Translations under genes and position numbers: made by a program
Notes under the pieces: model-generated
What the model saw: the letters and a program-made list of their open reading frames with translations, nothing else
Database searches by the model: none
What the model was told of the DNA's origin: nothing
Source of the DNA: Rhodococcus sp. 06-235-1A
GTDB taxonomy: Bacteria; Actinomycetota; Actinomycetes; Mycobacteriales; Mycobacteriaceae
Assembly: GCF_002258785.1 (NCBI RefSeq)
Contig: NZ_NOYI01000012.1
Location: forward strand, 1-64,000
Length of the DNA stretch: 64,000 nt
Direction: 5' to 3'
Shown: piece by piece, positions 59,440-63,384 of the stretch
Layout of the letters: each line of letters begins with the position of its first letter
How positions within the stretch are numbered: position 1 is the stretch's first letter

Positions 59440-60963
59440 TCAGGCCTGGGAGGGCTTGACGATCGGGAACAGGATCGTTTCGCGGATGCCCAAGCCGGTC
59501 AGCGCCATCAAAAGGCGGTCGATGCCCATGCCGGTTCCGGTGGTCGGCGGCATGCCCTGCTCCATCGCGGCCAGGAAGTCCTCGTCCAGCACCATCGCCT
59601 CGTCGTCGCCTGCCGCAGCCTGACGAGCCTGGTCCTCGAAGCGCTCGCGCTGGATGACCGGATCCACCAACTCGGAGTAACCGGTAGCCAGCTCGAATCC
59701 GCGAACGTACAGATCCCACTTCTCGGTGACGCCGGGCTTGCTGCGGTGCTGCCGGGTCAACGGGGACGTCTCGACCGGGAAGTCGCGGACGAACGTCGGT
59801 TCGGTCAACGCGTCGCCCACCTGGTGTTCCCACAGTTCTTCGACGAGCTTGCCGTGGCCGTAGATCGGGACGCCGTCCTTGCGCGGCACCTCGACCCCGA
59901 CCTTGTCGGCGATGGCGAGCAGTTCGTCGACGGTGGTGTCGGGGGTGACGTCGAATCCGAGTGATTCCGACAGCGACGGGTACATCTCGAGCGTCGTCCA
60001 TTCGCCGCCGAGGTCGTAGGTGGTGCCGTCGGGCAACGTCACAACCGTGGATCCGAGCGCGGCCATGGCCACTTCCTGAACGAGCTCCCGCGTCATCTTC
60101 GCCGAATCGTCGTACGTGCCGTAGGCCTCGTACGTCTCGAGCATCGCGAATTCCGGCGAGTGCGAGGAGTCTGCACCCTCATTGCGGAAGTTGCGGTTGA
60201 TCTCGAATACCTTCTCGATGCCGCCGACGACGCATCGCTTGAGGAACAGTTCCGGCGCGATGCGGAGGTAGAGGTCGGTGTCCATGGCGTTGGAATGGGT
60301 GACGAACGGCCGAGCGGCTGCGCCGCCGTGCAGCGTCTGCAGCATCGGCGTCTCGACCTCGAGAAAACCGCGACGTTCGAGCGCGTTACGCAGTTCTCGG
60401 ACGACGGCGATGCGCTTGCGGGCGGTCTCACGCGAGGTCGGGTTGGTGATCAGATCCAGGTAACGCTGCCGGATGCGCGTCTCTTCGCTCAGTTCCTTGT
60501 GCGCGACGGGCAACGGCCGCAACGACTTCGACGCGATCTGCCACGCGTCGGCCATCACCGAGAGCTCGCCGCGACGGGAGCTGATCACCTCGCCGTGCAC
60601 GAAGACGAAGTCACCGAGATCGACATCGGCCTTCCACTCAGCCAACGCCTCTTCGCCGACGCCGGCCAGGCTGATCATCGCCTGCAGCTGGGTACCGTCG
60701 CCCTCTTGCAGGGTCGCGAAACACAGCTTGCCGGTGTTGCGTACGAAGATGACGCGGCCGACGACTCCGACGATCACTCCGGTGGTCGTATCGGCCTCGA
60801 GCTCGGGGAACTCGGTGCGGATCTCGAGCAGGGAATGGGTCCGCGGGACGGACACCGGATATGCCTCGACCCCGCGCTCGAGCAGCGCAGCGCGCTTGGC
60901 ACGACGAATCCGTAGTTGCTCCGGGGTGTCGTCGGCCTGCTGGGGAGAAGCTGTGTCACTCAC
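59440..60963 (-). CDS. lysS: Lysyl-tRNA synthetase, class II
   Basis: The 507-residue synthetase has an OB-fold anticodon-binding domain (about 55-165: [19 protein letters not shown]) and the class II catalytic core with [51 protein letters not shown] and [13 protein letters not shown]. It charges tRNA-Lys. GTG 60963 (VSDTASPQQ) is the likely start; a start at 60993 would add ten residues. Confidence 0.95.
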
Positions 60964-60999
60964 GCGCACACACTTTACAGTCCGAGCGTGCAAGGACGA

Positions 61000-61422
61000 T
61001 CAGTGCGCAGCGACGGCCTCGGCCTCACGGACGCAATGCTTCGCCTGCGTGAGTACTCCGAGCAGTCCCGCCGACTTCAGCGCCTGGTAGCCGCCGACCA
61101 GGTCGGTGGACTTGTGCAGACCGAGCAACTTGAGCGACGCGGCGGCGAGCGAGGAGGTGTAGCCCTCCGAGCAGATGACGATCCACTCCACTTCGTGGTC
61201 GACGGCAATCGCCAGGCGTGCATCGCTCGTCGGGTCCAGACGCCATTCGAGGACGTTGCGTTCGATGGCCAGAGCCCCGGGCAGCGTTCCCTCGACTGCG
61301 CGCTGGGCCTGCGGACGAATGTCGATCACAACGGCACCGCGGTCGACGGCGTCGCGCAGCTCGAAGACGGTCATCCGGTCGATGGTCTCGCGCGCGGATT
61401 CGAGCATTTCGACGATGGTCAT
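61000..61422 (-). CDS. Rhodanese-like sulphurtransferase
   Basis: The 140-residue single-domain rhodanese has GAVVIDIRPQAQRAVEGTLPGALAIER and the active-site Cys in VICSEGYTSSLAA (about 85). It is coupled to the cysteine dioxygenase gene by an ATGA overlap. In actinobacteria this pair oxidises cysteine and handles the sulphane sulphur that results. The cysteine leader upstream probably controls both genes. Confidence 0.9.
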   Translation of the reverse strand: MTIVEMLESARETIDRMTVFELRDAVDRGAVVIDIRPQAQRAVEGTLPGALAIERNVLEWRLDPTSDARLAIAVDHEVEWIVICSEGYTSSLAAASLKLLGLHKSTDLVGGYQALKSAGLLGVLTQAKHCVREAEAVAAH

Positions 61423-61988
61423 TTCTTTGCCTTTTCGGGTTCGTCGGTGAGCTCGCTACGGGTACGACGCAGCGTGGACCGTTCGGTCACCTCGTAGTAA
61501 GACATCGCCGTCAGCGGCGGCGAGTAGGCGTGCACGCTGAGAGTGGGACCGGTCGTGGTCGACGCCGGATCGTGCATCACGTCGTGCACCCACCCGAGCG
61601 GGAACGATGCCTGATCTCCGGCGTCGAGGTGCCGCTCCCTCAGTTCGGTTCCTGCCCAACGATATTCGAGCAACGACCCACTCAGAACAGTCAGAGCACC
61701 GAGGGATCCGGCATGATCGTGCAGTTCGGTGGACCGATCGGGAACCCAGCTGATCAACCAGACATCGAGGTCGTCGTCGGAATGCAGGCGGGCGGCCCAG
61801 CGCTCGTCGGTCGGCCAGCGACCCCCGCCGGGTAGCAGGTGGTCGAAGCGACCTTCGAGAACGTCCGATGCGCCTTGATCGGTGATCCGAAGAAGGTCGG
61901 GAGGACGCAGCCGCGTCGGCAATGTCGAGACCGACCGCGAGGACAATCGGGGGCGCGAGGGTGCAGAAAATACAGGTGTGGAAAGCAT
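61419..61988 (-). CDS. Cysteine dioxygenase family protein
   Basis: The 189-residue cupin has the iron-binding triad His90, His92 (ELHDHAGS) and His135 (WVHDVMHD). It oxidises cysteine to cysteine sulphinate, lowering excess cysteine. A GGAG site at 61998-62001 supports the start at 61988, even though the first ~35 residues have no family match. It heads a two-gene operon with the rhodanese. A cysteine-codon leader with nested stems precedes it. Confidence 0.9.
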   Translation of the reverse strand: MLSTPVFSAPSRPRLSSRSVSTLPTRLRPPDLLRITDQGASDVLEGRFDHLLPGGGRWPTDERWAARLHSDDDLDVWLISWVPDRSTELHDHAGSLGALTVLSGSLLEYRWAGTELRERHLDAGDQASFPLGWVHDVMHDPASTTTGPTLSVHAYSPPLTAMSYYEVTERSTLRRTRSELTDEPEKAKK

Positions 61989-61999
61989 GAAGCTCTACT

Positions 62000-62050
62000 C
62001 CAGGGGTGTGTAACGAACGAGGCAGGATTCAGCCTCGACAACACTCCTGG
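62000..62050 (-). promoter_or_regulatory. Nested stem-loops of a cysteine attenuator
   Basis: The outer stem pairs CCAGGAGTG (62042-62050 on the minus strand) with CACCCCTGG (62000-62008), eight of nine bases. The inner stem pairs CGAGGC (62032-62037) with GCCTCG (62018-62023), perfectly. The outer 3' arm overlaps the first bases of the Shine-Dalgarno sequence of the dioxygenase gene, and its 5' arm overlaps the Gln-Glu-Cys codons of the leader ORF. A ribosome stalled at the Cys codons would keep the stem open. Confidence 0.75.
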
Positions 62051-62067
62051 GTGGCCATGCACGTCAT
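62029..62067 (-). CDS. Cys-rich leader peptide of the cysteine dioxygenase operon
   Basis: The leader encodes MTCMATQECCRG and stops at TGA 62029-62031; a GTG immediately upstream (62070) could add one residue. Three of twelve codons are Cys, two adjacent (TGT TGT). A -10-like CAGAAT ends 7 bases before the GTG, and no ribosome-binding site is visible, so the mRNA is probably leaderless. This matches the poly-cysteine leaderless short ORFs known in mycobacteria, in which ribosome stalling at low cysteine alters expression of the downstream genes. Confidence 0.75.
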   Translation of the reverse strand: MTCMATQECCRG

Positions 62068-62147
62068 CACGCCGACGATTCTGACACACGAACGCCGGAT
62101 TCGCTAGCGCTGGTCCGAAACAGTCGGCGCGGCTGCCGCTGAAACAT

Positions 62148-62948
62148 TCAGCGTGGCCGCCGTTTTGCCATGTTGCGTTCGTAGACCAGGCGCAGACCTT
62201 CGAGGGTCAGGTCGGGTTCGTGATGCTCGATGGTCGTCGACTCGGGCAGGATCAGCGCGGCGATGTCCCCGGTACCGATGATTGCGACGTCCGTCCCGGT
62301 CAGCTCGGGAACCTCTCGCCGGATCCGACCGACGAGGCCGTCCACCAGGCCCGCGAACCCGAAGATGGTGCCCGACTGGATGCACTCGACCGTGTTCTTG
62401 CCCAGCACCGACCGCGGCCGGACCATCTCCACCTCGCGCAGCGTGGCGGTTCGGGTCGACATCGCCCACGCCGACATCTCGAGTCCGGGCGCAATGGCAC
62501 CGCCGAGAAATTCTCCCTTGGCCGAAACGACGTCGACGCAGGTGGTGGTACCGAAGTCCACCACGATGCATGCCGAGTCGTACAAGTCGTGTGCGGCAAG
62601 GGTATTGACGATCCGATCGGCACCGACCTCTTTGGGGTTGTCGACCAGCAGCGGCACGCCGGTCCGCACGCCCGGTTCGACCACCACGTGCATCACGTGA
62701 TCCCAGTAGCGCGTGAGCATGGTGCGCATCTCGCGCAGCACCGATGGAACGGTCGACAGTGCGGTGATTCCGGTGATCTGTTCCGCATCGACTCCGAGCA
62801 ATCCCCGAAGCATCAGTGCCAATTCATCGGCCGTCACGTGTGGGTCGGTACGAATGCGCCAGTCCCGCAGTAATTTCGAGTGATCACCGGTGCCGGTGAA
62901 CAGGCCGACCACGGTGCTGGTGTTGCGCACATCGATCGCGAGGAGCAT
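62148..62948 (-). CDS. coaX: Type III pantothenate kinase
   Basis: The 266-residue ASKHA-fold kinase has [14 protein letters not shown] at the N-terminus (Asp6 phosphate-binding loop), [16 protein letters not shown], and [14 protein letters not shown]. It phosphorylates pantothenate in coenzyme A synthesis. It is close to Rv3600c in sequence and position. It lies 4 bases after panD, so panC-panD-coaX form a pathway operon. Confidence 0.93.
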
Positions 62949-62952
62949 CGAA

Positions 62953-63384
62953 TCAGACCAGCACGGAATCGGCCCGCAGATCGCGTGGAGTGATCAGTCC
63001 CGAGCCCGCGGGCGCATGAGCCGGATCGCTGCCCAGCTCGACGGGCCGGTTCTTCTCGTCGACGAACACGACCCTCGGCGCGTAGTCGGCAACTTCCTGC
63101 TCGTTCATCACGCCGTAGGCGATCAGGATGACCAGATCACCCGGGTTCACCAGATGGGCTGCAGCGCCGTTGATTCCGATCACACCACTGCCGCGCTCAC
63201 CGGTGATCACGTACGTTTCGAGCCGAGCACCGTTGTCGATGTCGACGATGGTGACCTGCTCGCCTTCGAGCAGGTCGGCTGCCTCCATCAGATCCTGATC
63301 GACTGTCACCGAGCCCACGTAATGCAGATCGGCGTGCGTGACGGTGGCGCGATGGATCTTGGACTTCATCATCGTTCGAAACAT
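62953..63384 (-). CDS. panD: Aspartate 1-decarboxylase
   Basis: The 143-residue proenzyme self-cleaves between Gly24 and Ser25 (HYVGSVT), giving the pyruvoyl cofactor. Other conserved parts are [17 protein letters not shown] and DLVILIAYG. It makes beta-alanine for pantothenate. It is 9 bases after panC in the same direction. Confidence 0.96.

Follow-up and report, generated by a model that had tools for sequence, protein, structure and literature searches.

A Cys-codon leader of predicted attenuator type upstream of a small rhodanese operon in Rhodococcus and related genera

The relevant passages of Shell et al. 2015 (PMC4633059) describe leaderless, Cys-rich ORFs that precede cysA2, Rv0485, and nirA; leaderless ORFs with contiguous Cys codons are reported as attenuators in M. 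smegmatis in the part of PMC9031893 that deals with them. In passages of PMC9031893 and PMC9094748, the cysteine-responsive attenuator function is credited to Canestrari et al. 2020. Masking of the Shine-Dalgarno (SD) sequence by pairing with the ORF corresponds to a translation-attenuation scheme, as set out in a section of PMC13236596. Cys leader peptides of actinobacterial cys operons, Mycobacterium among others, appear in the text on such leaders in Seliverstov et al. 2005 (PMC1262725). Here we investigated a short Cys-codon ORF in a 64,000-nucleotide stretch of the Rhodococcus sp. 06-235-1A genome (the window), where it precedes an operon with a gene of the cysteine dioxygenase (CDO) family and a rhodanese gene. 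Judged from comparative sequence data and RNA modelling, this leader probably acts on the operon as a cysteine-type attenuator of translation, mediated by the ribosome. The core of an earlier note on this DNA, that a leaderless Cys-codon ORF acts on a masked ribosome-binding site (RBS) as in mycobacteria, is supported by both kinds of evidence.

Layout of the leader and its operon

The leader and the operon are on the minus strand and are flanked by coaX (type III pantothenate kinase) and lysS (Table 1). In the 5'-to-3' direction, the -10 box CAGAAT is followed by 7 bases, the GTG at 62070, the ORF, a 40-base linker with the SD sequence, and the ATG at 61988. All elements listed in the earlier note (short ORF, TGT-TGT pair, -10 box, nested stems, and SD) were found on this strand. 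The ORF, which carries contiguous Cys codons, reads GTG ATG ACG TGC ATG GCC ACC CAG GAG TGT TGT CGA GGC TGA. The short Cys-pair ORF of that note is thus real, but its start is likely GTG 62070, giving 13 codons, and not ATG 62067, which would give 12, since in relatives a start codon is conserved at this place, 7 nt downstream of the -10 box. We infer that transcription starts at or beside the G of GTG 62070. Downstream lies a sulfur-metabolism gene, the rhodanese, whose start overlaps the dioxygenase stop as ATGA.

Table 1. Positions of the leader and operon features in the window
Feature	Position	Strand	Basis
-10 box CAGAAT of the leader promoter	62078..62083	-	sequence; 7 nt before GTG
Leaderless-type short ORF VMTCMATQECCRG followed by stop, 13 codons	62029..62070	-	GTG start 62070, TGA 62031-62029
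Tandem Cys codons TGT TGT (codons 10-11)	62038..62043	-	conserved among leaders
Stem P1, 5' arm region (codons 3-5)	62056..62063	-	pairs with start-codon region 61986-61989
Stem P2, 5' arm CCAGG	62046..62050	-	fold and pair counts
Stem P2, 3' arm CCTGG	62000..62004	-	overlaps first two SD bases
Stem P3, 5' arm GTCGAGGC, within the ORF	62032..62039	-	last six bases pair with 62018-62023
Stem P3, 3' arm GCCTCG, past the stop codon	62018..62023	-	column conservation
SD sequence GGAG of the CDO-family gene	61998..62001	-	sequence
CDO-family cupin thiol dioxygenase (PF05995), operon gene 1	61419..61988	-	Pfam E 1.4e-10
Single-domain rhodanese (PF00581)	61000..61422	-	Pfam E 3.6e-10

A consensus scan of 61800-62300 detected no sigma-70 promoter-like site, and the number of intrinsic-terminator-like sites in the same interval was 0, so that no terminator of the uORFC-8-2 type was found there. 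An Rfam scan of 60900-63000 gave nothing above the gathering score; its two sub-threshold matches were both inside genes and off the leader. Four extended leader peptides gave no match in an NCBIfam scan, the actual 13-mer being below the 20-residue limit of the tool.

A poly-Cys leader, VFSRHELMLTSRRTVDLCRLGGCCCRCC followed by a stop codon, is also found in the source genome at the locus of a thiosulfate sulfurtransferase (minus strand of contig C27, from about 29377 to 29291; TAGGAT, 7 nt, GTG). It is followed by another ORF and then by a two-domain rhodanese-type enzyme. By its sequence, it is a leader of the ordinary mycobacterial type within the same genome. At the sulfite reductase loci of this genome, a scan detected no adjacent-Cys leader in the stretches examined.

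Conservation of the leader and of its downstream genes

A scan of one genome per species yielded 570 confirmed relatives, the best 80 of which make up our named set; these loci sample close kin and overlap with the genome set of the family, and the two counts are consequently not independent. All named loci (80/80) have, upstream of a CDO-family gene, a short ORF whose in-frame start is preceded at 6-7 nt by NANNNT and which runs through adjacent Cys codons to a stop. The distance from the -10 box to the start was 7 nt in 79/80 loci and 6 nt in the remaining one, in a scan that allowed only 6 or 7 nt and slightly preferred 7. As a control, the same rule was applied to the other TGYTGY sites of these loci and fitted 1 of 598. 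The named loci come from Rhodococcus, Rhodococcoides, Prescottella, Antrihabitans, Nocardia, Williamsia, Aldersonia, Mycobacteroides, and Mycobacterium. The leader, which the earlier note placed outside Mycobacterium, is not limited to such genomes, since Mycobacteroides/Mycobacterium loci (L201, L207) carry leaders ending in FQGCCCG and FQGWCCG, each followed by a stop, at the CDO-family gene. Seventy CDO-family loci were examined out of 116 genomes with a match; 66 of them belong to the family of the window, and 59 of these had the CC leader. No CC leader was found at the other seven family loci with a CDO-family match (L044, L045, L046, L055, L062, L064, and L066). Nor was a leader found at 29 PF05995 genes of the class that are more distantly related (30 retrieved, crude parsing).

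A loose scan of both strands of the 64-kb window (NANNNT, 6-7 nt, start, short CC ORF) returned 5 rows, two of which were the leader ORF. Thus, the pattern is not significant in a single genome, while its conservation is. In the sequences compared, this conservation rules out a chance origin of the leader. A covariance model of the leader gave one match (E <= 0.01) in each of 105/201 genomes of the family, in 17/31 genera; there was never more than one match per genome, and the weakest were near the threshold (stricter filters). In the source genome, the model placed the element at 61986-62070 (E 5.5e-17), the leader itself being part of its training set, and revealed no second copy up to E 1.

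The constraint on the sequence is narrow. From 137 leaders we obtained 97 distinct ones, and the 84 with an in-frame ECCRG-stop pattern were used for pair counts; the 13 distinct leaders left out have, for example, CCRRI, ECCRF, MCCR, RCCR, CCLG, or ECCRGR before the stop. Among the 84, the 18 bases GAGTGTTGTCGNGGCTGA varied only at N (A 76, G 7, C 1). The selecting pattern permitted GAA, TGC, and alternative Gly codons, none of which was found. The Cys pair was accordingly TGTTGT in 84/84 distinct leaders and never TGC; five genes of the window, a small sample, use TGC 6 times and TGT 2 times. Upstream of the ECCRG block, the first seven residues of the peptide vary widely. The number of codons before Glu was 8 in 80 leaders, 7 in 3, and 22 in 1, that is, it differed by whole-codon steps in scans for which an in-frame start was a condition. 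Codon 4, which had been counted as an additional Cys codon, is not conserved (Arg 41/84, Cys 33/84), and only the Cys-Cys pair is kept. Most leaders have two adjacent Cys codons, and the leader ending in QGCCCRS has three; other divergent leaders end in CCR, CCRF, CECCRP, or QGCCGA before the stop. The leader scans sought adjacent Cys codons and would let leaders lacking them escape.

Using the 18-base pattern with up to 2 mismatches, we obtained 74 matches in the source genome versus 28 for a reversed control; the one exact match was the leader itself. The exact pattern was found in 35/397 genomes of the order. Of the exact matches, 13 located away from known leaders were followed up; two of them (L125, L129) proved to be true leaders preceding a rhodanese, and the other 11 (L101-L111) looked like chance. 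A search of a plasmid collection returned two records, from Nocardia and Tsukamurella.

At CDO-family genes in other families of the order (L067, L069, L070), upstream ORFs seem to end in FDECCR, FDEACRGR, and FDEGCMCG before the stop, and such ORFs perhaps encode a related, longer leader peptide. Separately, longer leaders (L031, L032, L048, L057, and, at 105-116 nt, most of the Nocardia leaders in L157-L209) have an additional hairpin, located between P3 and the SD sequence, which in L032 repeats the GAGGC/GCCTC motif. This second hairpin could pair with the P3 arms as an alternative structure.

The downstream genes were examined for the 30 best of the covariance-model matches in 105 genomes. 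A rhodanese was downstream in 30/30; between leader and rhodanese, 19 have a nearly complete CDO-family match (E at most 2e-55), 2 have a remnant, and 9 have no match. The leader thus accompanies the rhodanese in all 30 best matches, and the dioxygenase is optional. Of the dioxygenase/rhodanese operon that the leader would set, the rhodanese is the constant gene (30/30), and the leader is not specific to the dioxygenase (9 none, 2 remnant). Moreover, in 80/80 named loci a rhodanese was present within the same 3.5-kb locus, and its active loop was CSEGYTS in 77, CSEGFTS in 1, and CQEGYTS in 2. In 28 genomes where the CDO-family gene has no such leader, matches only weakly, or is missing, a scan allowing 6-8 nt after the -10 box found an ECC leader before a rhodanese-like gene at 9/31 loci, one of which is in the window's own genus. 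Several dioxygenase-less rhodanese-like genes behind an ECC leader (L125/L302, L305, L129, L315, L318, and L320) often have no loop Cys, with VSADG, VSAYG, VTDDG, ISEDG, or VGTDG in place of CSEGYTS; because of this missing Cys, these rhodanese-like proteins may not be sulfurtransferases. At L347 and L348 (genomes G504 and G495, genus g9), a short C-terminal-like dioxygenase remnant is found between a kept leader and the rhodanese.

The solved structure nearest to the CDO-family protein is ergothioneine dioxygenase (8qfr/8qfl), ahead of other solved CDO-family proteins. Our structure model of the protein is poor (mean pLDDT 55.9), and the fold ranking thus merely backs the sequence ranking. 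The CDO-family alignment contains S-x-H-x-Y, the CDO triad as stated for the family in a published abstract. The kinship of the predicted "cysteine dioxygenase" with ergothioneine dioxygenase would fit sulfur salvage. The dioxygenase has no Cys in 77/84 cases with the leader and in 25/28 distant homologues without it; Cys depletion as a sign of low-cysteine expression was therefore not discriminating and was dropped.

Stem pairing and the modelled effect of a ribosome

The window leader folds into three nested stems, CGTG/CATG (which includes the start codon), CCAGG/CCTGG, and CGAGGC/GCCTCG. Its minimum free energy (MFE) was -30.2 kcal/mol (z -2.32), and 4/200 dinucleotide shuffles folded as well; the predicted fold, taken alone, is only moderately unusual. 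Twelve leaders folded alongside had z values from -0.50 (L029) to -5.67 (L043), and the 84 leaders had a median z of -2.66 against mononucleotide shuffles, with values below -2 in 52/84. RNAalifold run on a MAFFT alignment mis-paired the 5' part, and gaps shifted the 3' half; stem pairs were instead counted on anchored positions by script.

In the window MFE structure, P1 pairs CGTG (62063-62060) with CATG (61989-61986). In the register common to the leaders, codons 4-5 pair with the start-codon region. The first four positions of P1 were kept in 77-84/84 leaders, and the seven breaks fall at the start-codon pair, which was U-A in 60, U-G in 12, C-G in 5, and broken in 7 of 84. On the tree, this pair changed the same way in 0.5 and showed no difference in 2.5 of 3 independent pairs. 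The five pairs of P2 were kept in 82-84/84 leaders; this stem is nearly invariant and, since it hardly varies, gives no covariation evidence. Seven of the eight P3 pairs were kept in 82-84/84 leaders and the eighth in 58/84. Past the stop codon, column conservation over the initial six bases of the P3 3' arm was 0.85-1.00, against 0.36-0.75 in the flanking linker. The P3 pair formed by the third position of the Arg codon was A-U in 75, G-C in 7, C-G in 1, and A-C in 1 of 84 leaders. In the leaders aligned, this is a silent codon change matched by a partner outside the ORF. The pair changes four times on the tree of the enzymes and provides two independent pairs on supported branches, which were compensating in nearly every random pairing. 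Independent covariation events were few, and the sign test was not significant. The conservation that the earlier note had named as a check was thus found for the TGT-TGT pair and the stems, while compensatory change was seen at one P3 pair only.

We then modelled the effect of a ribosome on the leader, using as opening cost the RNA energy needed to open the SD-to-start stretch (median of 84 leaders). The cost was 13.2 kcal/mol for the free leader, 8.0 with a ribosome whose A site is occupied by the first Cys codon, and 8.8 with a ribosome at the stop codon. Controls with a shuffled 5' part remained at 8.8 (free) and 8.7 (ribosome) kcal/mol, so that the extra closure belongs to the leader sequence and is lifted by the ribosome. 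The cost dropped by at least 5 kcal/mol in 50/84 leaders versus 5/252 controls. In the model, a ribosome on the Cys codons thus loosens the pairing between the ORF and the RBS of the next gene. Since a ribosome at the stop lowers the cost too, stalling at Cys and slow termination are barely distinguishable in the model. The unpaired probability of the start codon rose from 0.22 to 0.90 with a ribosome at the first Cys codon. Depending on the assumed footprint, the start codon was dearer to open with a ribosome at the stop than at Cys in 18-29/84 leaders, and the reverse difference of 2 kcal/mol occurred in 0/84. These modelled costs mildly favour Cys stalling as the ON state. The unpaired probability of the SD sequence, tried as a switch read-out, went the wrong way, falling from 0.26 to 0.11 when a ribosome covers the leader, because small local hairpins form; opening energy was used next, and the modelled switch consequently rests on opening energy and the start codon.

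Proposed mechanism, competing readings, and known systems

According to our proposal, the ribosome would start directly on the 5' end of the mRNA and translate the 13-codon ORF. Without a ribosome on the message, the three nested stems would mask the SD sequence and start codon of the downstream gene. A shortage of charged tRNA-Cys would make the ribosome wait at TGT-TGT and cover the 5' arms of all three stems; the start region would open as in the modelling, and the operon would be translated. When cysteine is plentiful, the ribosome would finish and depart, and the stems would close. By analogy with the mycobacterial attenuators, in which the response reportedly has this sign, the operon would be ON at low cysteine. 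Low cysteine would then raise the sulfurtransferase, plus the thiol dioxygenase where present, a response that would be sensible for enzymes that salvage sulfur instead of consuming free cysteine; for a dioxygenase with cysteine as its substrate, induction at low cysteine would be odd.

TnaC holds the terminating ribosome at plentiful tryptophan and senses the excess amino acid at the stop codon. Similarly to arrest leaders of that type, the leader studied here is short and precedes what is annotated as a catabolic amino-acid gene, and ECCRG-stop could be an arrest peptide that holds a terminating ribosome at plentiful cysteine, or a thiol derived from it, with the genes ON at high cysteine. 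We consider this unlikely. The dioxygenase is indeed catabolic by annotation, ECCRG-stop is conserved beyond the needs of cysteine counting, and a ribosome at the stop codon also cuts the opening cost (8.8 versus 13.2); in R. qingshengii, two rhodanese-type proteins, neither linked to the leader locus, were down in a sulfate-starved dibenzothiophene culture, according to the proteins named in a part of PMC8557817. However, the last codons double as stem arms and synonymous sites are equally frozen, so that RNA constraint can explain the invariance, and opening the start codon costs more when the ribosome is at the stop. Moreover, the peptide has only 13 residues, of which the first seven are widely variable, and endings such as CCR, CCRF, CCGA, and CCCRS before the stop are unexpected for a specific arrest peptide. 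The more specific idea of a dedicated sensor of the rhodanese operon, in which the frozen ECCRG-stop makes a cysteine-inducible, TnaC-like arrest leader that uses the same stems with a sign opposite to that of the poly-Cys attenuator of the genome, also appears improbable.

The stems could also be opened without any sensing of an amino acid, simply by coupling to translation of the ORF, the Cys codons being merely pairing bases. The bases of the first TGT do pair with the linker in several folds, and the modelled cost is lowered to much the same extent by a ribosome at any position between Glu and the stop codon (7.9-8.8 versus 13.2). Divergent leaders nevertheless keep at least two adjacent Cys codons despite changed surroundings (in scans that required adjacent Cys), and a poly-Cys leader of the ordinary type, with a similar layout, is present in the source genome; such a ribosome-traffic switch therefore seems rather doubtful to us. 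It is very improbable that the block is a conserved promoter or DNA-binding site, such as the operator of a regulator, with a chance ORF and incidental stems. Its unusual invariance and its inverted repeat would suit an operator, but the invariant block is downstream of the inferred transcription start and has its Cys codons in the same frame as the stop, the 3' arm of P3 varies along with the 5' arm, and the length before Glu differs by whole codons, though in scans that required an in-frame start. A cysteine attenuator acting by translation is the reading that we retain.

If so, this sharply defined leader extends cysteine attenuation, as predicted here, from mycobacteria to rhodococci and nocardias, with two Cys codons sufficing. 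It names a constant target, the small rhodanese, which would tie this enzyme to cysteine supply. What the rhodanese does in the cell, and which substrate the adjoining CDO-family enzyme really uses, become directly testable. The leader is also a putative functional gene of 13 codons, a size passed over by gene finders. No description of an ECCRG leader was found in the literature searched, which did not extend to the locus list of Canestrari et al. 2020.

Compared with known systems, the leader resembles uORFC-8-2 upstream of cysS in Rhodobacterales (PMC8632094) in being an upstream ORF with two tandem Cys codons inside a stem. In contrast, uORFC-8-2 ends in an intrinsic terminator, and thus in control of transcription, and is not called leaderless in the text that presents it, whereas no terminator was found here. 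The leaders of Seliverstov et al. (PMC1262725) are, in the passages devoted to them, likewise short ORFs with Cys runs near the stop, upstream of cysteine genes, and without a terminator; there, conserved terminator hairpins were missing and Rho was suggested, while here the conserved stems mask the SD sequence. The mycobacterial poly-Cys attenuators, as far as the cited passages describe them, share with our leader a leaderless ORF at the mRNA 5' end (a predicted position here), adjacent Cys codons, and an association with sulfur-metabolism genes (cysA2 and nirA there). Unlike them, the present leader has mostly two Cys codons, frozen codons, and a compact three-stem fold, it occurs in genera beyond mycobacteria, and its rhodanese target comes with or without a CDO-family gene. 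What sets this leader apart from the known kind is thus the combination of two Cys codons, a frozen ECCRG ending, a stem that includes the start codon, a small rhodanese as target, and a wide spread.
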